Source: Herpetosiphon giganteus
GTDB taxonomy: Bacteria; Chloroflexota; Chloroflexia; Chloroflexales; Herpetosiphonaceae
NCBI RefSeq assembly: GCF_016907925.1
Contig: NZ_JAFBCZ010000012.1
Coordinates: 1 to 64,000 of the forward strand
Reading direction: 5' to 3'
Length of the DNA stretch: 64,000 nucleotides
The notes under the pieces: generated by a model
The model's input: the letters and a program-made list of their open reading frames with translations, nothing else
Databases searched by the model: none
What the model was told of the DNA's origin: nothing
Translations under genes and position numbers: made by a program
Shown: piece by piece, positions 7,972 through 39,983 of the stretch
Layout of the letters: each line of letters starts with the position of its first letter
Numbering within the stretch: position 1 is the first letter of the stretch

Positions 7972-9066
7972 GTGAAACGTTTTTTTCAGCAATGGCTTCA
8001 TTCGCTTTCGTATTCCGACCCCATTCAATTGCAACAAGCCCAAATTATGCAGGGTATTCTCTTAGGTTCGTTTCTGGCCAGCACTGGCGCTTTAGTTGTG
8101 CCATTTCTTGCTCCAGTCACCACCGCTCAATCAATTGGGATCGCGATTGCCATTGGCGCAGCGATTATGATTTTTCTAGGAGCGTTGTTACTTCTGCGGC
8201 GCAATTATTTTAAGCTGGCACTTTTTGGCAGTGTTTTTGGCTTATCGTTCTTTTTATTAATTATGTTGCTTGGCACGGGCTTGGCCGATAGCGGCGCGAT
8301 TATTTTTGGCTTGGCAGTGCCCATGGCCTTGGCAAGCTTGCTGAGTGGCCGCAAATTGACCTTTGTGATGATTGGCGTTGGTATGGTTGGCTTGATTGTA
8401 ACCGCCCTAGCCGAAGCATTTGTGCCCCAAATCACTGGTTTTGCCAAACCTATGGATAAAAATTATGGCGGGATTATTGGTGGCTATATGGCAGTCGCTT
8501 TGGTGCTGGGGATGGTGTTATCGAGCTATGGCAGCGCCTTATCAACCGCGCTGAGCAGCGCCCGCACCCGTCAAATCGAGCTAGAGTTGCTGCAAGCCAG
8601 CCTTGAAAAAACCGTTGCCGAGCGCACCGCGACGTTGCAAAATACCTTGGCTGAATTAAAGCAACGCGCTACCGAACAATCCCAACTATTGGAAGCCAAC
8701 CAGCAACAAGCGGCGGTTATTCGCGAGTTGGGCGTGCCAATTATTCCGCTTGGTGGGCGACGTTTGGTTGTGCCCTTGGTCGGCCAACTTGATAGCGATC
8801 GTTTGGCCACTATTCGCGAACGGGTGATTACTGCGGTGGTACAGCAACGTGCCCGCCAAGTGCTGCTCGATGTAACCGGTGTGCCCTTGGTTGATGTGTA
8901 TATGGCTGGTGAATTGGCGGCGGTGATTGCCGCTACCAGCTTGGTTGGAGCCGAAACCGCCTTGGTTGGCATCAATCCCGATGTTGCGCAAGGTTTGGTT
9001 GGCTCTGGGATTGATGTGAGTCGGCTGCCTGCGTTTGCCACGTTGGAACAAGCCCTGAATTCATAG
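7972..9066 (+). CDS. membrane STAS-domain regulator
   Basis: A 364-residue protein with about six hydrophobic helices in residues 20-195, a predicted coiled coil (LELLQASLEKTVAERTATLQ and on, to about 250), and a C-terminal STAS domain in which LLDVTGVPLVDVYMAGEL aligns with the anti-sigma-antagonist core. The arrangement recalls RsbR-like co-antagonists with a sensory membrane part (inference). The GTG start was chosen because GAGGAG lies six bases upstream; longer in-frame versions would begin inside the glyS terminator. No partner kinase or sigma factor gene is adjacent; another STAS protein is encoded at 57463. Confidence 0.8.
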   Translation: MKRFFQQWLHSLSYSDPIQLQQAQIMQGILLGSFLASTGALVVPFLAPVTTAQSIGIAIAIGAAIMIFLGALLLLRRNYFKLALFGSVFGLSFFLLIMLLGTGLADSGAIIFGLAVPMALASLLSGRKLTFVMIGVGMVGLIVTALAEAFVPQITGFAKPMDKNYGGIIGGYMAVALVLGMVLSSYGSALSTALSSARTRQIELELLQASLEKTVAERTATLQNTLAELKQRATEQSQLLEANQQQAAVIRELGVPIIPLGGRRLVVPLVGQLDSDRLATIRERVITAVVQQRARQVLLDVTGVPLVDVYMAGELAAVIAATSLVGAETALVGINPDVAQGLVGSGIDVSRLPAFATLEQALNS

Positions 9067-9095: not shown

Positions 9096-10118
9096 ATGGC
9101 GCTTGAGCAGCCCACCCGGGCCTTGGTAATTGGCGGATGTGGCTTTGTTGGCAAGCATTTGGTGCAGCAACTTTTGGCCAGCGGGCGGCCTGTGCGAGTG
9201 TTTGATCTTCAGCCCTATCCCGACCAGCAGGTCGAATCGGTGGTTGGCGATTTGCGCCGTGCTGAGCAAGTTTTAGAAGCTTGCCGCGATGTTGGCACGG
9301 TCTTTTTGTGTGCCGCTGCGGTCGATTGGGGCTGGGGCAATGCCCAATTATTGCACGATGTGAATGTGCTAGGGCCGCAGCATGTGGTTGCTGCCTGCAA
9401 AGCCATGGGCGTTGCGCAACTGATTTATACCAGCAGCGTTGATGTAGTGTTTGAGGGCAAACCAATTCGCGCTGGCGATGAGCGCTTGCCCTATCCCAAG
9501 CGCCATTTGGATATTTACGGCGCGACCAAAACCGCTGGCGAGCGCTTGGTTTTGGCGGCCAATGGTCAGGCAGGCTTGGCAACCTGTTCGTTGCGTTTGG
9601 GCGGCGTGTATGGTCCAGGCGATTCACATCGTTTGCCTTCGTTGGTCGCTTTGGGCCGGCGCAGCGCGATTCCACGCTTGGGCGATGGCTCGGCACGCTT
9701 TTCGCATATCTACGTGGAGAATGCTGCCCATGGTCATATTCTCGCAGCCCAACATCTAACCGTCGCTGGGGTGATGGGCGGTCAAGCCTATTTCTTAGTC
9801 GACCCTGATCCTGATAACTTTTTTCTATTTCTCAAGCCGATAATCGAAGCTTTGGGTTTGCGGATGGCCCAGCGCCATGTGCCATTTGGCCTGATGAATA
9901 TGTTGGCTTGGCCCAGCGAAACTTGGTATCGCACCACGCGCAGCAAGCAACGCCCCAGCCTAACGCGTTATACCGTCACCTCAACCTGCGTTGATTTTTG
10001 GTTCACCGGCACCAAAGCTGCCCAAGATTTTGGCTACCAGCCGCTGGTCGGGCTTGCCGAGGCCCGCCAACGCACGATTGAGTGGGCCAAGCGCGAGTTT
10101 AATTTAGGGCTGAAGTAA
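9096..10118 (+). CDS. NAD(P)-dependent epimerase / 3beta-hydroxysteroid dehydrogenase-like SDR
   Basis: A 340-residue extended short-chain dehydrogenase. It has the N-terminal nucleotide-binding GGCGFVGKH (GxxGxxG), the active-site YGATK with Tyr and Lys, and upstream YTSSVDVVF supplying the catalytic Ser. The pattern DWGWGNAQLLHDVNVLG is typical of the 3beta-HSD-like branch, whose bacterial members act on sterol/terpenoid alcohols or nucleotide sugars. Substrate not predictable. It starts about 30 bases after the STAS gene behind GGGAG, so the two may be co-transcribed. No membrane segment of the sterol-enzyme type is obvious. Confidence 0.82.
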   Translation: MALEQPTRALVIGGCGFVGKHLVQQLLASGRPVRVFDLQPYPDQQVESVVGDLRRAEQVLEACRDVGTVFLCAAAVDWGWGNAQLLHDVNVLGPQHVVAACKAMGVAQLIYTSSVDVVFEGKPIRAGDERLPYPKRHLDIYGATKTAGERLVLAANGQAGLATCSLRLGGVYGPGDSHRLPSLVALGRRSAIPRLGDGSARFSHIYVENAAHGHILAAQHLTVAGVMGGQAYFLVDPDPDNFFLFLKPIIEALGLRMAQRHVPFGLMNMLAWPSETWYRTTRSKQRPSLTRYTVTSTCVDFWFTGTKAAQDFGYQPLVGLAEARQRTIEWAKREFNLGLK

Positions 10119-33005: not shown

Positions 33006-33935
33006 ATGAGCAACTGGGAAAAAACGTTTGGTAAGCGCGAATTACCAACACCTCCAGCATGGGTCAATTTTTTTAGTCCACAGCAATGGCAAGATTTTCG
33101 CCAAATCGTGCAGCGATATTTGAAAAACCTCGGTTTACCGGTTCGCCCCGAAAACCAAGGCTTTGTGGTGCTGGCCGATTATGCTGGTTGGACCAAAGAC
33201 ACCCGCATTGGGCTTAGCTCTTTGGCGCAAAAATGCTATGCCCATCCCCAATCGCAATGGCTGGCAGTTATTACCGATCACTTTGAGGCAATGCACAAGG
33301 GCTTTGAAAACGAAGTGCTCTTGCAAGATGAAATAGACGATTTTGAGAGTGTTCGCGATTTGTTGGCTATTCGCTTGTGGGCCTTGGAGCCTGAATTGCG
33401 CGAAAAGCTGATCTATCGCGAGGATTTGCAGGATGTGTGTTCGGTCTTGGTCTTCGATTTGCCAACGACCATTCGTAGCGTCAGCAGCGACGAGGCCGCC
33501 GCCTGGGGCAAGAGCAACGATGAATTGTTTGCAATTGCCTTGGAAAACTTGCGCGGACGCGAGTTGCGCCTGACCGAACACGAGTTGGATGATGGGATCA
33601 ATGTGCTGGCGATTACTGGCGACGATTTCTTGATTGGCTCGCAAAGCTTGTTGCTTGAGCATTACCCCCAATGTTTGGGCCGCTTTGGTACGTTGGTGGC
33701 TGTGCCCAATCGCCATGTGGTGTTGTGCTACCCAATTAATGAACCAATTGCCTTGGAAGCGTGGACGAGTATGCTGCCTGTGGTCGAAGGCATGTACTTG
33801 AATGGCCCTGGCTCGATCTCAAATCAGGTTTTTTGGTACGATAATGGCACCTTTACCCATTTGCCGCATTCGCAAGAGCAGCAATCGCTGCGTTTATCGC
33901 CGCCAAGCACCTTTTTAACCACCTTCCAAGAGTAA
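33006..33935 (+). CDS. uncharacterised protein, DUF1444-like
   Basis: A 309-residue soluble protein that starts MSNWEKTFGKRELPTPP after GGGGGGAACC. The C-terminal half (residues 150-285) with DLPTTIRSVSSDEAAAW, then NVLAITGDDFLIGSQSLLLE, is reminiscent of DUF1444/YtpQ proteins, but I am not certain. No signal peptide or membrane helix; acidic overall. Neighbours are a terminator and a GNAT gene, so context gives no function. Confidence 0.75.
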   Translation: MSNWEKTFGKRELPTPPAWVNFFSPQQWQDFRQIVQRYLKNLGLPVRPENQGFVVLADYAGWTKDTRIGLSSLAQKCYAHPQSQWLAVITDHFEAMHKGFENEVLLQDEIDDFESVRDLLAIRLWALEPELREKLIYREDLQDVCSVLVFDLPTTIRSVSSDEAAAWGKSNDELFAIALENLRGRELRLTEHELDDGINVLAITGDDFLIGSQSLLLEHYPQCLGRFGTLVAVPNRHVVLCYPINEPIALEAWTSMLPVVEGMYLNGPGSISNQVFWYDNGTFTHLPHSQEQQSLRLSPPSTFLTTFQE

Positions 33936-34564: not shown

Positions 34565-34594
34565 TAGACAACTATTAATAATTAAAAGTATACT
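34565..34594 (+). promoter_or_regulatory. candidate promoter of the peptide array
   Basis: TAGACA, 18 bases, TATACT in an AT-rich stretch, about 33 bases before the first peptide start codon. One mismatch to each consensus hexamer. Confidence 0.65.
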
Positions 34595-34627
34595 AGCGTC
34601 AATTCACCGATTCATTAAGGAGTACCC

Positions 34628-34726
34628 ATGAAGAAACTGACGATTCGCAAGACCGAAACCCTGAAAACGACCGCTGCGTTTTATGCTGGTGGCTGTGGTG
34701 GCCCAATCATCATCGTTCTGCCATAA
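34628..34726 (+). CDS. candidate precursor peptide 1
   Basis: A 32-residue peptide. Residues 1-23 are the array consensus: MKKLTIRKTE, then TLKTTAAFYAGGC. The tail is GGPIIIVLP. ATG with AAGGAG seven bases upstream. Twelve-gene-wide context: ten more copies follow on the same strand. Single Cys at position 23; ends in Pro. I do not recognise a named family. Confidence 0.85.
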   Translation: MKKLTIRKTETLKTTAAFYAGGCGGPIIIVLP

Positions 34727-34851
34727 TAAACGTCGGCAAACCCAAAACCTCATCGAAGCAACACCTTTTCTCCTTCCTGCCTTTGCTTCAAAAACCCAAC
34801 TTAAATTCCCTAAAGTAAATACGATCATTTTCATTCCAATGAAGGATTCCC

Positions 34852-34956
34852 GTGAAAAAGATCACCATTCGTAAAGCTGAAACCTTGAGAACCACTGCGG
34901 CATTTTATGCTGGCGGGTGTCATTCAGGCGGTGGTGGAATTATTGTGATTCCCTAA
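34852..34956 (+). CDS. candidate precursor peptide 2 (GTG start)
   Basis: A 34-residue peptide, first residues MKKITIRKAE then TLRTTAAFYAGGC and tail HSGGGGIIVIP. The start must be GTG (AAGGA seven bases upstream), because the nearby ATG is in another frame. The only copy with Arg in place of Lys13 and a His after the Cys. A 125-base spacer separates it from copy 1. Confidence 0.8.
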   Translation: MKKITIRKAETLRTTAAFYAGGCHSGGGGIIVIP

Positions 34957-35070
34957 ACCTCGCAGCTACGACGATTTTGAAGCAACTCCTCCCACATCTT
35001 GCTCCACTGCTTCAAAATAATTGAGGATGATCGTCGCACATTTAACTATCATCTCACAAGGAGCAACCCC

Positions 35071-35181
35071 ATGAAGAAAATCATCATTCGCAAAGCTGAA
35101 ACCGTTAAAACGACCGCTGCGTTCTATGCTGGTGGCTGTGGCGTATCACCAATTGGCCCAGGCCGAATCCTGATCCCATAA
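35071..35181 (+). CDS. candidate precursor peptide 3
   Basis: A 36-residue peptide, MKKIIIRKAE then TVKTTAAFYAGGC and tail GVSPIGPGRILIP. ATG with AAGGAG about eight bases upstream. The tail has Gly/Pro and a basic residue, unlike copies 1 and 2. Confidence 0.85.
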   Translation: MKKIIIRKAETVKTTAAFYAGGCGVSPIGPGRILIP

Positions 35182-35267
35182 GCACAACTCCATCCTCAAG
35201 CTATTTGCCTCCTTCTCTCCTAGCTCCTGCAAATAGTGCTTCAGATTTTATTTTGGCTCATTAACCT

Positions 35268-35284
35268 CCCATCATTGCCATGGG
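35268..35284 (+). promoter_or_regulatory. small hairpin before peptide 4
   Basis: CCCAT CATTGCC ATGGG lies just before the TTATTAGGAG ribosome site. A near-identical hairpin precedes peptide 5. It could influence initiation or RNA processing (inference). Confidence 0.4.
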
Positions 35285-35301
35285 CTTATTAGGAGTATCA
35301 C

Positions 35302-35415
35302 ATGAAAAAGATCACGATTCGCAAGGCCGAAACCGTCAAAACCACCGCTGCGTTCTATGCTGGTGGCTGTGGTGGCCCAATTGTTCCAGGCCGCGGTGGC
35401 GTGTTAATCCCATAG
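35302..35415 (+). CDS. candidate precursor peptide 4
   Basis: A 37-residue peptide, MKKITIRKAE then TVKTTAAFYAGGC and tail GGPIVPGRGGVLIP. Longest class together with copy 10. Ribosome site AGGAG seven to eight bases before ATG, preceded by a small hairpin. Confidence 0.85.
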   Translation: MKKITIRKAETVKTTAAFYAGGCGGPIVPGRGGVLIP

Positions 35416-35502
35416 GTTTTGCTTGTTGCTATTTGCATTTTTCGCTCTTTGCTCCCGCTGCAAATAGTTCCACAGATTCCCACTTGCATCGATTCGAAGC
35501 AT

Positions 35503-35519
35503 CCCATTAACGCAATGGG
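35503..35519 (+). promoter_or_regulatory. small hairpin before peptide 5
   Basis: CCCATT AACGC AATGGG followed by TTTATTAGGAGTG; the counterpart of the hairpin before peptide 4. Confidence 0.4.
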
Positions 35520-35536
35520 TTTATTAGGAGTGTGTT

Positions 35537-35641
35537 ATGAAAAAGTTGAGCATTCGCAAAGTTGAAACCCTCAAAACCACCGCTGCCTTCTATGCTGGTG
35601 GTTGCGGCGGCCCAGGCGGCCCACCACGCCAAATCCCATAG
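35537..35641 (+). CDS. candidate precursor peptide 5
   Basis: A 34-residue peptide, MKKLSIRKVE then TLKTTAAFYAGGC and tail GGPGGPPRQIP, very rich in Gly and Pro. AGGAG seven bases before ATG. Confidence 0.85.
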   Translation: MKKLSIRKVETLKTTAAFYAGGCGGPGGPPRQIP

Positions 35642-35683
35642 GCTTGGCTGTTTGAATTGTTTATTTGTTTTAAGGAGTGTGTT

Positions 35684-35776
35684 ATGAAAAAGCTTGCAAT
35701 TCGCAAAGTTGAAACCCTCAAAACCACCGCCGCTTTCTATGCTGGTGGCTGTGGCGGCCCTCGCCCGCTTCCATAA
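35684..35776 (+). CDS. candidate precursor peptide 6
   Basis: A 30-residue peptide, MKKLAIRKVE then TLKTTAAFYAGGC and tail GGPRPLP. TAAGGAG eight bases before ATG. From here on spacers shrink to 30-50 bases. Confidence 0.85.
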   Translation: MKKLAIRKVETLKTTAAFYAGGCGGPRPLP

Positions 35777-35816
35777 GCTTCTCGGCTTAATTGATGAGCA
35801 ATCTTAGGAGTGTGTC

Positions 35817-35906
35817 ATGAAAAAGATTACGATTCGCAAGACTGAAACCCTCAAAACCACCGCTGCCTTCTATGCTGGTGGCTGTGGTGGCGTTCGCTTG
35901 CCATAA
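35817..35906 (+). CDS. candidate precursor peptide 7
   Basis: A 29-residue peptide, the shortest copy: MKKITIRKTE then TLKTTAAFYAGGC and tail GGVRLP. TTAGGAG before ATG. Confidence 0.85.
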   Translation: MKKITIRKTETLKTTAAFYAGGCGGVRLP

Positions 35907-35958
35907 ACGATAGCGCTACGAAATGCACGCTGATTAATTGTTATCAAGGAGCATTCCC

Positions 35959-36051
35959 ATGAAAAAGATTACGATTCGCAAAACCGAAACCCTGAAAACC
36001 ACCGCTGCGTTCTATGCTGGCAGCTGTGGCCCAATCTTCGCCCAACCATAG
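35959..36051 (+). CDS. candidate precursor peptide 8
   Basis: A 30-residue peptide, MKKITIRKTE then TLKTTAAFYAGSC and tail GPIFAQP. Here the residue before Cys is Ser rather than Gly. The protein sequence is identical to that of copy 9, although the DNA differs at six synonymous sites. Confidence 0.87.
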   Translation: MKKITIRKTETLKTTAAFYAGSCGPIFAQP

Positions 36052-36081
36052 GCAACAAACCTCAACGATAAGGAGTGTGGC

Positions 36082-36174
36082 ATGAAAAAGATTACGATTC
36101 GTAAAACCGAAACCCTCAAAACCACCGCAGCCTTCTACGCTGGCAGCTGTGGCCCAATCTTCGCCCAACCCTAG
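36082..36174 (+). CDS. candidate precursor peptide 9
   Basis: A 30-residue peptide identical in protein sequence to copy 8. The synonymous differences (CGC/CGT, CTG/CTC, GCT/GCA, GCG/GCC, TAT/TAC, CCA/CCC) show that the reading frame, including the tail, has been maintained. AAGGAG before ATG. Confidence 0.87.
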   Translation: MKKITIRKTETLKTTAAFYAGSCGPIFAQP

Positions 36175-36216
36175 TTTATTCGCCGCAATCTAAATTAGTG
36201 CTAAGGGGGATTTCCA

Positions 36217-36330
36217 ATGAAAAAGATCACCATTCGCAAGGCTGAAACCTTGAAAACGACCGCTGCCTTCTATGCTGGTGGCTGTGGTGGCCCAATCATC
36301 ATCAGCCCATTCCCAGTGCTGGAACCATAG
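36217..36330 (+). CDS. candidate precursor peptide 10
   Basis: A 37-residue peptide, MKKITIRKAE then TLKTTAAFYAGGC and tail GGPIIISPFPVLEP. Its tail starts like that of copy 1 (GGPIII) but is extended. Ribosome site TAAGGGGGA. Confidence 0.85.
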   Translation: MKKITIRKAETLKTTAAFYAGGCGGPIIISPFPVLEP

Positions 36331-36362
36331 GTTTTTGACTCGACGGTGTGTAAGGAGTATTC

Positions 36363-36473
36363 ATGAAAAAGATTACGATTCGCAAAGTCGAAACCCTCAA
36401 AACAACGGCGGCCTTTTACGCAGGCTCCTGCGACCCAATTGGCCCCGGTGGTCCCATCCTCGTTGGTGCATAA
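36363..36473 (+). CDS. candidate precursor peptide 11
   Basis: A 36-residue peptide, MKKITIRKVE then TLKTTAAFYAGSC and tail DPIGPGGPILVGA. The only copy ending in Ala instead of Pro and the only one with Asp after the Cys. AAGGAG seven bases before ATG. The M50 protease gene starts 73 bases later with no terminator between. Confidence 0.85.
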   Translation: MKKITIRKVETLKTTAAFYAGSCDPIGPGGPILVGA

Positions 36474-36546
36474 ACTGAACCTGTGAGTGAGTGAGCAGGA
36501 GAAGGTTTTTAGTTAATCCCAACACTAGAAGGGTGGGCCTGGCGCT

Positions 36547-37851
36547 ATGACAAGTATGGTTGCTGCCTCGACGAATCCTTTGTATACAGCATCAGCCTAT
36601 GTTGATGTGTATCCATTTGTTCGGCAAGAGGAGAGCGAAGAAGAGTTATTAATTGGGCGCGTCGATACCAATAACTTCATTATGCTGCCCAAAGAAGCCG
36701 TTGAAATCCTCGATGATTTGGCGCATGGCAAAACTATTGGCGAGGCGCAAGCCCTCTATGCCGAACGCTATGGTGAAATTCCCGATTTGGTTGATCTCCT
36801 CGAACAATTAGAATCCGAAGGCTTTGTCCAGCCACTCCAATCGGATACGGTGCGCTTTGGCCAACAAGCGCCAACCAATACAGCCGAAGCTGTTGCAACC
36901 ACACCCAATCAACCGCGCACTGTGCGCTTTCACTTCACGTTTTTTCCGGTGCGGCTAGCCCAACTATTGTTCAGCCCAATTGCTTTGGCCTTGTATGCGA
37001 TTTTTATTGGTGGCGCGGCGGCAATTGTGCTGTCTCAACCATCGATTGTGGCAGGCTGGCGGGCGATGGTGGTCGATGAACAAATGGCGATCTTTACCCT
37101 AATCATCATGCTGCATGGCTTTGTCATCACCTTTTTTCACGAGCTTGGCCATGCGGTTGCCGCCCGTTCGCGTGGGGTTGATGTACGCTTTGGCATCGGG
37201 CGACGCTTATGGGTGATTGTGGCCGAAACCGATATGTCGGCAATTTGGTCGATTAAGCGCAATCTGCGCTTTTTACCAATTCTGGCGGGCATGGTGGTCG
37301 ATTTGCTCAGCGCCGCGATGATGATTTATCTGGCGTTTATGCACCAGCGCCAAATCATTAATCTTTCGGATTTTGGCTATGTTTTGGTGCGGGCGTTTAT
37401 GTGGAGCTACCTGCTGAATTTGCTGTTTCAGCTGTATTTCTTCGTGCGCACCGATATTTATTATTTCCTCTCAACCTGGTTGCGTTGCTCAAACCTCATG
37501 GGCGATACCGCCAATTATATGATCAATCAGTTCAATCGTTTAATGGGTCGCCCAGAACCGCATAATCAAGCGGCAATTCCCGAACGTGAGCGCACAATTA
37601 TCAAGCGCTACGCCTTTTTCTGGCTGATCGGACGGGTGCTTGCTTTCTATTCGTTGTTCTTCTTAACCCTGCCAATTTTATGGAGCTACGCCAGCATTTT
37701 GTTTGAACGCATGTTTGGTAGTTCAAGCAACAACCTGCAAGTGCTCGATTCGATTTTGGCAGCCATTTTGATCTTTATCAGCCAAGCCGTTGGAATCTTC
37801 CTTTGGCTTTGGAGCTTGATCCGCAGAAAGGTTAGCGTCGATGACATCTAA
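36547..37851 (+). CDS. M50 metalloprotease with N-terminal PqqD-like domain
   Basis: A 434-residue membrane protein. Residues 35-97 look like a PqqD/RRE-type peptide-recognition domain (TNNFIMLPKEAVEILDDL, then LVDLLEQLESEGFV). After a linker come about six membrane helices. The second carries the zinc site FFHELGHAVAARS (HELGH at 198-202), and D303 in RTDIYYFLS followed by CSNL fits the third-ligand motif of the site-2-protease class (usual DGYY...PNL). Similar proteases accompany RiPP clusters such as yyd (family knowledge). Likely processes the upstream peptides at the membrane (inference). The ribosome site is weak. It overlaps the TPR gene by 11 bases. Confidence 0.85.
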   Translation: MTSMVAASTNPLYTASAYVDVYPFVRQEESEEELLIGRVDTNNFIMLPKEAVEILDDLAHGKTIGEAQALYAERYGEIPDLVDLLEQLESEGFVQPLQSDTVRFGQQAPTNTAEAVATTPNQPRTVRFHFTFFPVRLAQLLFSPIALALYAIFIGGAAAIVLSQPSIVAGWRAMVVDEQMAIFTLIIMLHGFVITFFHELGHAVAARSRGVDVRFGIGRRLWVIVAETDMSAIWSIKRNLRFLPILAGMVVDLLSAAMMIYLAFMHQRQIINLSDFGYVLVRAFMWSYLLNLLFQLYFFVRTDIYYFLSTWLRCSNLMGDTANYMINQFNRLMGRPEPHNQAAIPERERTIIKRYAFFWLIGRVLAFYSLFFLTLPILWSYASILFERMFGSSSNNLQVLDSILAAILIFISQAVGIFLWLWSLIRRKVSVDDI

Positions 37852-39727
37852 GAGCAAGCAATTAATCGTCTGGGTAGGCAATGCTGGCGCGCAACGAACC
37901 GCAGCCGCCCAAACATGGCTAAACCAACAATCTGCGGCGCGCACATGGTTGCTGAGCATGAATCGGTCTAAGTTGGGCCACTGGGCTGGGCTAAATAGCT
38001 TTGTTAGCTCGCTCTTGCCCGAAATTAAAGCCCAAGCGCCTGAGCTATTGGTCAAATATGATTATGAATTGGCGTTGGTGCTGCCCCAATTGCAACGTGA
38101 ATTGGCCGTGCGCAACCCAAGCCTGACCGATATTAGCAATCCTCAAGAGCGCACCCGCAATTATGCCGCCGATCGCGCCTTTCGGATCGTGCAAGGCTTG
38201 ATCGATATGCTGCATGAGTTTCGCCAACATGCACCCGACCAAGCTTGGGTGATTGTCTGCGATCAGTTTGATCAGGCTGGCTCATTGGTCACGATGTTTT
38301 TCAAAGAATTATTGCGCCGCGCCGACCAACGCTTTGGCTTGACGATTGGCTTTTTGATTGAGCCAAACGCTGAGTTATTGGCCGAATATCAAAGTTGGGC
38401 CGAGCATGTCGAGCTTATCAATGGCGATTGGCAAGCAGATCAGCCAGTCGCTGAATTAGATCCTGCTGAGGCCAAACAACGGCTTGATGAGCTAGAGCGC
38501 GACCATACCTTTGATCCCATTGAAATTGAATTGCACTTGCCGCAATTGATTCAGCTGGCAACCGCCGCCAACGAGCCACGCAAGCGACTGGGCTTTATGC
38601 ACGAAGGCCTTTCGATCTGCTCGACACGTGGCTTGTATGCAGATGCGCTGTATTATGGCGAGCCGTTGCAAGTTGCAATGGAGCGCGATTTCCCGAAGAG
38701 CGTTGATTTTCGGCTCAGCGCCTATTTGAAGCTCTACAATTGTTATATTGGGCTAAAACAGGCCGAGCCAGCCTTGGCAATTGCCGAAACTGCGGTGAGC
38801 ATCACCGATAATCCAGCCCGTTTATTTAGCTGGTATTACTTGATTGCGATGATTCATGGGCGCTTTGCCGTGCCCCGCGATTACGATCAGGCCGAGCATT
38901 ATCTTAATTTGGGCATTGAAGCGATTCAGCAGGCCGATATTCCAGCCCAAGAAAAACTCTTCCAATCATCATTCAATCGCAATGGCTTGGCATTAATTCG
39001 CCACTTCCAAAAACGACCCTTGGAAGCGATTGAAATTTGCCAAGAATGTTACAAACAGCTGGAAACCGGTTTAGATACCGAGGAACACAAATTACATCGC
39101 TCGGTTTTGCTGTATAACATTGCCCAAGTGTACGATTCGCTCAAAGATTATCCGAATGCACTGCATTATTACACCTTGACAATTGAAATGGACCCCAACT
39201 ACGCCGAATATTACAACGAACGAGCCAATATTTATCTGCAAATTGGCGATTATGCAGCAGCCGAGCGCGATTATCGCCAATCGATCGAGCTTAGCCCGCC
39301 GTATACCGAAGTCTGGACCAACCTTGCCCAATGCTATCAATTGCAAGACGAATTTGAGCAAGCAGTTGGGGCGTTTAGCCGTGCGCTGGATATTGATCCC
39401 AAAAACGTGGTGGCGCTCAACCATCGGGCCGAATGCTACGAAGCTTTGGGCCAAACTCAGGCTGCGATCGAAGACTATAGCGCCAGCCTGAAGCTCAAGC
39501 CAAACGACTCAGGCATTGTTGCCAACCGCGCTATTCTCTATTATGAGCTTGGCGATTTGGCTGCCTCGTTGGCCGATTTGAACACCGCGATTGAATTGCA
39601 GCCCGATTTGGCTGAGCTGTACGAAAATCGTGCGGTAGCGTTGGAAGCGCTCGAACGCTATCCAGAAGCCGAGCACGATCGCCAGCAAGCGATATTGTTG
39701 GCCAACGCCCACGAAGTCAATGCCTAA
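37841..39727 (+). CDS. TPR protein with degenerate P-loop-like N-terminal domain
   Basis: A 628-residue protein. The N-terminal 200 residues resemble a STAND/AAA-type ATPase fold, with VWVGNAGAQRTAAA where a Walker A would be but no GKT/S, and AWVIVCDQFDQAG as a Walker-B-like strand. The C-terminal part (about 410-620) contains six or so TPR repeats (NALHYYTLTIEMDPNYAEYY and following). Such proteins act as protein-binding scaffolds. The start lies within the end of the protease gene, so translation is coupled and the two probably work together. A regulatory, chaperone or immunity-type role at the peptide locus is possible but unproven. Confidence 0.85.
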   Translation: MTSKSKQLIVWVGNAGAQRTAAAQTWLNQQSAARTWLLSMNRSKLGHWAGLNSFVSSLLPEIKAQAPELLVKYDYELALVLPQLQRELAVRNPSLTDISNPQERTRNYAADRAFRIVQGLIDMLHEFRQHAPDQAWVIVCDQFDQAGSLVTMFFKELLRRADQRFGLTIGFLIEPNAELLAEYQSWAEHVELINGDWQADQPVAELDPAEAKQRLDELERDHTFDPIEIELHLPQLIQLATAANEPRKRLGFMHEGLSICSTRGLYADALYYGEPLQVAMERDFPKSVDFRLSAYLKLYNCYIGLKQAEPALAIAETAVSITDNPARLFSWYYLIAMIHGRFAVPRDYDQAEHYLNLGIEAIQQADIPAQEKLFQSSFNRNGLALIRHFQKRPLEAIEICQECYKQLETGLDTEEHKLHRSVLLYNIAQVYDSLKDYPNALHYYTLTIEMDPNYAEYYNERANIYLQIGDYAAAERDYRQSIELSPPYTEVWTNLAQCYQLQDEFEQAVGAFSRALDIDPKNVVALNHRAECYEALGQTQAAIEDYSASLKLKPNDSGIVANRAILYYELGDLAASLADLNTAIELQPDLAELYENRAVALEALERYPEAEHDRQQAILLANAHEVNA

Positions 39728-39728
39728 G

Positions 39729-39861
39729 TCCCCTCACCCCAACCCCTCTCCCGTCCAACGGGCGAGGGGCTTTAACGCCGTGGTTCTTGCAAAAATCCTT
39801 GGAAAAAACGGGTGCTCGCCCTCGCCCGCGTCTAGTGGGAGAGGGGGCTGGGGGGTGAGGG
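39729..39861. repeat. inverted-end repeat (family B), copy 3
   Basis: Starts TCCCCTCACCCCAACCCCTCTCCC and ends GGGGGTGAGGGAA. The middle reads GGTTCTTGCAAAAATCCTTGGAAAA, shared with the copy at 55236. Confidence 0.8.
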
Positions 39862-39983
39862 AACGCAAAATCCTTGCAAGCTTATAAACCGCTGCAACTG
39901 AATCTTCATTTGTTGGCGAAATCATTGCTATACTGAGCCTCAAGGAACAATCCCTTGAGGCTCATTTGATTGAGGAGCTGCTG

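Follow-up and report, generated by a model that had tools for sequence, protein, structure and literature searches.

A candidate ribosomal-peptide cassette in Herpetosiphon giganteus: arrayed one-cysteine precursors with an M50 protease and a TPR protein

What could be produced by eleven very short genes that stand in front of genes for a membrane protease and a tetratricopeptide repeat (TPR) protein? The question is raised by a locus of Herpetosiphon giganteus (contig NZ_JAFBCZ010000012.1, positions 1 to 64,000; this whole stretch of 64,000 nucleotides is called the window below). The first-pass annotation had interpreted the locus as a system resembling those of ribosomally synthesized and post-translationally modified peptides (RiPPs), and our analysis supports this interpretation. 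We consider it probable that the locus is a three-part ribosomal-peptide cassette, in which the precursor leaders would bind to a RiPP recognition element (RRE) of the M50 protease, the protease would cut them and release Cys-containing cores, and the TPR protein would act as a scaffold.

The array comprises 11 short open reading frames (ORFs) on one strand, 29-37 amino acids each, spanning positions 34628-36473:

34628 to 34726, plus strand: precursor peptide 1, MKKLTIRKTETLKTTAAFYAGGCGGPIIIVLP
34852 to 34956, plus strand: precursor peptide 2, GTG start
35071 to 35181, plus strand: precursor peptide 3
35302 to 35415, plus strand: precursor peptide 4
35537 to 35641, plus strand: precursor peptide 5
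35684 to 35776, plus strand: precursor peptide 6
35817 to 35906, plus strand: precursor peptide 7
35959 to 36051, plus strand: precursor peptide 8
36082 to 36174, plus strand: precursor peptide 9, same protein as peptide 8
36217 to 36330, plus strand: precursor peptide 10
36363 to 36473, plus strand: precursor peptide 11, Ala-terminated

As described in the first-pass annotation, these genes lie head to tail and have their own ribosome sites: a Shine-Dalgarno-like sequence (AAGGAG, AGGAG, AAGGA or GGGGG) is found within 15 nucleotides upstream of all 11 starts. Alignment likewise confirmed the common front of 23 residues ending in the invariant Cys23, with 17 invariant columns (M1, K2, K3, I6, R7, K8, E10, T11, T14-G21 and C23), and the C-terminal Pro of ten of the eleven peptides (peptide 11 ends in Ala). 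A peptide-profile search of the 6.16 Mb genome returned exactly the 11 array copies (E ≤ 8e-18, the next match having E = 2), and the leader codon differences among the paralogues, summed over pairs, are mostly synonymous (381 versus 143 nonsynonymous), which together exclude a chance origin of the array. The leaders are under strong purifying selection; the Nei-Gojobori (NG86) estimates of nonsynonymous and synonymous divergence (mean dN 0.076, mean dS 0.97) indicate constraint at the protein level and not recent copying of DNA, though the neighbouring copies 8 and 9, at 35959 and 36082, encode an identical peptide.

This selection bears on the possibility that the array represents regulatory or decaying small ORFs, serving as decoys or inhibitors of the protease with no released product. 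The copy number does vary between Herpetosiphon species (9, 11, 11 and 13 copies were found), and one H. aurantiacus copy (locus L019, positions 8503-8607, MKKITLRKAETLKTPAALNAGGCNSGVGRIIMIR) is seemingly decaying, a sign of birth and death of array copies. Nevertheless, the constraint on the leaders, the ribosome site of each ORF and the retention of the cores GPIFAQP, GGPRPLP and SLYAPFSCWPF across species make such an origin very improbable.

The division of the peptides into a leader and a variable core, proposed earlier, was borne out by comparison with relatives; a conserved leader with a variable core in an encoded precursor is a feature of RiPPs. K2 and R7 do not vary among 85 distinct peptides and T15 hardly does, the leader pattern being KK-I-x-I/V-R-K-x-E/G-x-V/L-K/R-x-T. 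The leader type follows lineage, with TTAAFY in most Chloroflexota and RLTSAAQPLY in multi-copy Micromonosporaceae. A Cys is present in 96 of 96 distinct peptides, 88 of which contain exactly one. The cores are strongly divergent, rich in Gly, Pro and Ile in Herpetosiphon and of the types CNNYCYGMCCCAEFLG, SLYAPFSCWPF or AAACxxYPSKL elsewhere. Between Herpetosiphon species the core is more variable than the leader: nonsynonymous changes account for 14 of 37 changed codons in the core versus 11 of 106 in the leader (Fisher p = 0.0006 over pooled pairs, which are not independent of each other); taken singly, the pair of the window and L018 gives p = 0.002, and that of the window and L019 is not significant. 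Two familiar roles of a Cys in short peptides were set aside, namely an Agr-type thiolactone, given that the distance from Cys to the C-terminus ranges from 0 to 15 residues, and a lipoprotein lipobox, given that by inspection the stretch before the Cys has no hydrophobic core. Two arrays are headed by a divergent first peptide (L021, positions 9573-9707, and L065, on the reverse strand some 920 bases ahead of the M50 frame), whose long conserved tail, AIYDGDSxGWPGCDPVFHEPPA, is unlike the other copies.

The peptides are linked to the protease well beyond the window. A scan of the collection with the peptide alignment detected them in three named Herpetosiphon species, Chloroflexi AL-N1, a Chloroflexota metagenome-assembled genome and the actinomycete Phytomonospora endophytica, all with the gene order peptide-M50-TPR. 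The same order occurs in Micromonosporaceae, which we take to be the family of Phytomonospora, and in two further genomes, taken by their size and content as Ktedonobacteria-like, that were added by the TPR profile over 400 Chloroflexota genomes. Identity to the window proteins is 32-41% for M50 outside the genus and 28-48% for TPR. The M50 profile matched 45 of 151 genomes of Micromonosporaceae; with the TPR profile 60 of 355 matched, part of them solely across the TPR repeats. Among evenly drawn Actinomycetota 3 of 397 genomes matched, so the system is patchy and concentrated in the Micromonosporaceae. The co-occurrence across Chloroflexota that had been proposed as a check is thus real and extends outside these bacteria.

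Each of the 43 M50+TPR loci examined (8 in Chloroflexota and 35 in Actinomycetota) has one or more peptides with the leader motif at its M50 gene, and 36 of these loci were found by the M50 or TPR profile with the peptide not used; the first-pass annotation had made its reading depend on such linkage in other genomes. Two more TPR matches had no M50 gene in the surrounding stretch fetched. The stronger test is a scan of 21 whole genomes with a 26-residue leader profile, in which the matches fell at M50 clusters with two exceptions, a further M50 locus that has no TPR (E = 2.8e-4) and a single stray match (E = 0.03); the genome-wide linkage of leader and M50 is specific. As to spread by plasmids, one partial Streptomyces match was the only one found.

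A second type of locus occurs in Micromonosporaceae (L069-L078 and L080), where an M50 homologue without TPR follows a single peptide of 22-36 amino acids, e.g., MKKLxVRKLEPVKTSAAxxC..., with one Cys near its end. The two such loci checked have neighbours resembling non-ribosomal peptide and polyketide synthases: AMP-binding and carrier proteins, a thioesterase and PhyH in one, and LnmK-like and HMG-synthase-like proteins, a carrier protein and a beta-eliminating lyase in the other. Remoter Chloroflexota M50 homologues (L106-L109, in G274, G334, G188 and G041) have neither TPR nor a recognisable leader peptide nearby.

The boundaries of the system are given by two Herpetosiphon relatives that lack it:

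34481 to about 39973, no strand assigned: cassette interval, replaced by 66-72 bp in these two relatives

In both, the DNA passes from the GNAT stop straight to the YdjM-like gene, the leader peptides occur nowhere in the genome, and the TPR protein was also not found; all 6 Herpetosiphon genomes searched have the flanking gene (33006-33935 in the window). From this exact absence it follows that the peptides, M50 and TPR form one cassette, and it contains nothing else. The neighbouring genes encode GNAT, YdjM-like and FAD oxidoreductase proteins. A search of the defence library gave no meaningful match (a PrimPol match was to the TPR repeats), and an Rfam scan of 33.9-40.1 kb gave none. The best promoter-like site lies about 34 bp ahead of the first peptide start:

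34565 to 34594, plus strand: promoter-like site TAGACA-18-TATACT, candidate operon promoter, from a consensus match alone

The count of promoter-like sites in the region is not above the shuffled expectation. Together with the strongest stem-loop 3' of the TPR gene (39934-39964), this site is compatible with a predicted single transcript. Next to the TPR gene, at 39728-39864, lies a GC-rich palindromic interspersed repeat (CCCTCACCCCAACCCCTCTCCC...), whose 19-base core has 140 occurrences in the genome. At this site H. geysericola lacks the repeat and H. llansteffanensis carries it in the opposite orientation, which points to a repeat that is mobile or can invert.

What, then, could the protease do with these peptides?

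36547 to 37851, plus strand: RRE-M50 membrane site-2-type metalloprotease (Pfam M50, family-retained motifs)
36616 to 36816, plus strand: RRE/PqqD-like N-terminal domain, about residues 24-90 (predicted structure, PDB fold matches)

The first-pass annotation had described an M50 protease with a PqqD-like domain. Its first part stands by sequence (Pfam Peptidase_M50, E = 4.6e-7, above cut-off), while PqqD remains below the Pfam cut-off (E = 0.12) and is supported by predicted structure. The protein has the features of an M50 site-2 protease, i.e., the HExxH motif (HELGH, residues 198-202), a distal Asp metal ligand (D303, in RTDIYY) and hydrophobic segments; HExxH and the distal Asp are kept in 16 of 16 cases, and TDxY is kept in the family. 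Sequence searches of the PDB gave no match with the M50 profile and only chance matches with the N-terminal domain alone. In the AlphaFold2 model, built from 7 sequences, residues 24-90 form three strands followed by three helices (pLDDT of about 65-84 for the block), and the high-probability PDB fold matches come from systems that modify peptides, in which they are the recognition domains: leader-bound TbiB1 (probability 1.00, TM 0.71 on target), lasso B1 with leader (probability 0.96), ThcOx, the substrate-bound heterocyclase LynD and the sactipeptide enzyme CteB. Judging from aligned length and rmsd, the aligned part should be the N-terminal domain, which is predicted to fold as an RRE, that is, a precursor-recognition domain. 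Such a domain in an associated enzyme is a common, not universal, feature of RiPP systems, and the similarity of the protease N-terminus to RREs that had been expected is thus seen at the level of fold.

The remaining member of the cassette is less easily placed:

37841 to 39727, plus strand: TPR protein with a degenerate NTPase-like N-terminal domain without Walker A (Pfam TPR, model, PDB search)

Its earlier description as a TPR protein coupled to the protease was correct (Pfam TPR_1, E = 4.9e-40; gene overlap with M50 of 11 bp), and a PDB fold search with its model (pLDDT 86) led to TPR superhelices. An alpha/beta domain made up of the N-terminal 200 residues weakly resembles AAA_16. In 15 homologues, residues 1-120 contain no Walker A motif (GxxxxGK[ST]); we infer a degenerate STAND-type domain. 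No helix-turn-helix (HTH) was detected by Pfam.

The combination of a site-2 protease and a TPR protein brings up the main functional rival, a pheromone system of the Eep and RRNPP kind, in which M50 would mature short hydrophobic pheromones and the TPR protein would be their cytoplasmic receptor. Eep/RseP site-2 proteases do mature short pheromones of Gram-positive bacteria (PMC10202637), and RRNPPA proteins are cytoplasmic quorum-sensing peptide receptors (PMC9765709). The likeness includes the site-2 protease, short hydrophobic tails (here rich in Gly, Pro and Ile) and a TPR protein; the overlap of the TPR and protease genes also agrees with it, as do the regulators with STAND and TPR domains adjoining some clusters. 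However, the RRNPP receptors, which bind the mature peptide, mostly have an HTH in addition to TPR, whereas the protein in question lacks one by Pfam and its NTPase-like N-terminus is degenerate. Furthermore, eleven peptides of different cores with one TPR protein are unlike the pattern of one receptor for one pheromone, the RRE domain is a biosynthetic feature, and the phyla are different. We therefore regard the pheromone system as unlikely and retain the peptide-maturation cassette.

In relatives, additional partners appear. In 21 of the 35 actinobacterial M50+TPR loci, the TPR gene is directly followed, often with 4 bp of overlap, by a gene for a flavin reductase-like protein (PF01613 where scanned):

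L021, 14731 to 15234: flavin reductase-like fourth gene; equivalents in L065-L068, L079, L081, L082, L112-L116 and L158-L165

An FMN reductase is found beside the AL-N1 cluster and a nitroreductase near one Ktedonobacteria-like locus. These neighbours, the Cys common to all the peptides and the predicted RRE domain could be explained by a true RiPP, in which the Cys would be modified by a trans-encoded or unrecognised, possibly flavin-linked enzyme and M50 would act only last. This is compatible with the proposed cassette, to which it adds a modification step. On the other hand, there is no flavin enzyme inside the Herpetosiphon cassette, so the flavin partner is not universal, and no known RiPP modification enzyme was found among the scanned neighbours in the window; we hold this version to be possible but doubtful. 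As to regulators, Pfam identified a BTAD-NB-ARC-TPR (SARP-type) protein upstream in L065, genes of similar size and placement are present in L021 and L066-L068, and AL-N1 has an HTH-STAND-TPR regulator by the cluster.

Of the known systems, daptides are the most instructive for comparison: their leader is removed by an RRE-dependent intramembrane peptidase (MpaP/DapP; PMC10036551) with the RRE fused N-terminally to a site-2 protease, and next to it lie several short precursors whose leaders share a conserved motif, as in our case. Unlike daptides, the array has no Thr-ending peptide (the tails end in Pro or Ala), and the cassette contains a TPR partner and cores with an invariant Cys instead of the oxidative decarboxylase, aminotransferase and methyltransferase. 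The daptide protease family NF041824 matches the window protease at 37.9 bits (E = 1.1e-9), far under its 300-bit cut-off. Daptide membership was rejected on these grounds. M50 proteases also act on the ribosomal peptides of epipeptide and pearlin systems (EpeP, TglG, TmoG; PMC10885120). Those of epipeptides (EpeX; EpeP/YydH/LiaK) are thought to cut and export a short peptide; since no radical SAM epimerase was found in the cassette or the scanned neighbours, this assignment was rejected, and the protease model NF058609 gave no match to the window protease at E ≤ 1 (two TPR-less homologues match weakly). Pearlins (TglG/TmoG) share short scaffold peptides and a membrane M50 protease, but here the Cys is encoded within the peptide and no peptide aminoacyl-tRNA ligase (PEARL) occurs in the cassette or scanned neighbours, which rejects them as well. 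The earlier statement that no named system has this set of genes agrees with the family libraries, where no peptide family model matches the array, and with the open-licence literature searched, which held neither the leader strings nor a pairing of M50/PqqD or site-2 protease/TPR with RiPPs.

The cassette could thus work as follows. Each short gene would yield a precursor made of the leader and a short one-Cys core with many Gly, Pro and aliphatic residues. The membrane M50 protease would receive the leader at its RRE domain, may cut in the small-residue stretch around TxAAxxY and would free the core, probably at the membrane or across it. The TPR protein, whose translation is coupled to that of the protease, would hold precursor and protease together (in actinobacteria also the flavin-linked partner) or, alternatively, be a receptor. 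The array would in this way give a mixture of cores from one machine, and our first guess is a secreted mixture of signalling or antagonistic peptides. Several points weigh against this scheme. The M50 model is of moderate confidence, with a mean pLDDT of 69, and by Foldseek E-value the matches to RRE folds are weak (0.27 to about 2.6) despite probabilities of about 0.85-1.00, as is to be expected for a small domain in a 434-residue query. The spread of Cys-to-end distances implies no single cyclic chemistry, the cassette includes no known modification enzyme and no dedicated exporter, and the role proposed for the TPR protein is guesswork.

As the cassette has no modifying enzyme, the system is strictly 'RiPP-like'; we place it as a variant among the RRE-dependent peptide systems, and it would be of a wholly new kind only if the Cys chemistry is new. 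That it represents a new RRE-dependent class of Chloroflexota and Actinomycetota, defined by the KKIxVRK leader, one-Cys core, RRE-M50 and TPR scaffold, with a new and perhaps flavin-linked Cys chemistry and about 10 combinatorial products of a single protease in Herpetosiphon, is conceivable, with our judgement leaning somewhat against it.

In general, the locus is a compact candidate for an undescribed peptide family, having three gene parts, a searchable leader motif and a protease for which a recognition domain is predicted. Annotation all but misses it, because no peptide model matches it and its protease falls far below the curated cut-off of the nearest named family. The finding suggests that the peptide systems served by RRE-M50 proteases are more numerous than described so far, and the universal Cys is the residue at which to look for any chemistry. 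Should the products be active, a single cassette would give many related peptides, which would be attractive for engineering.

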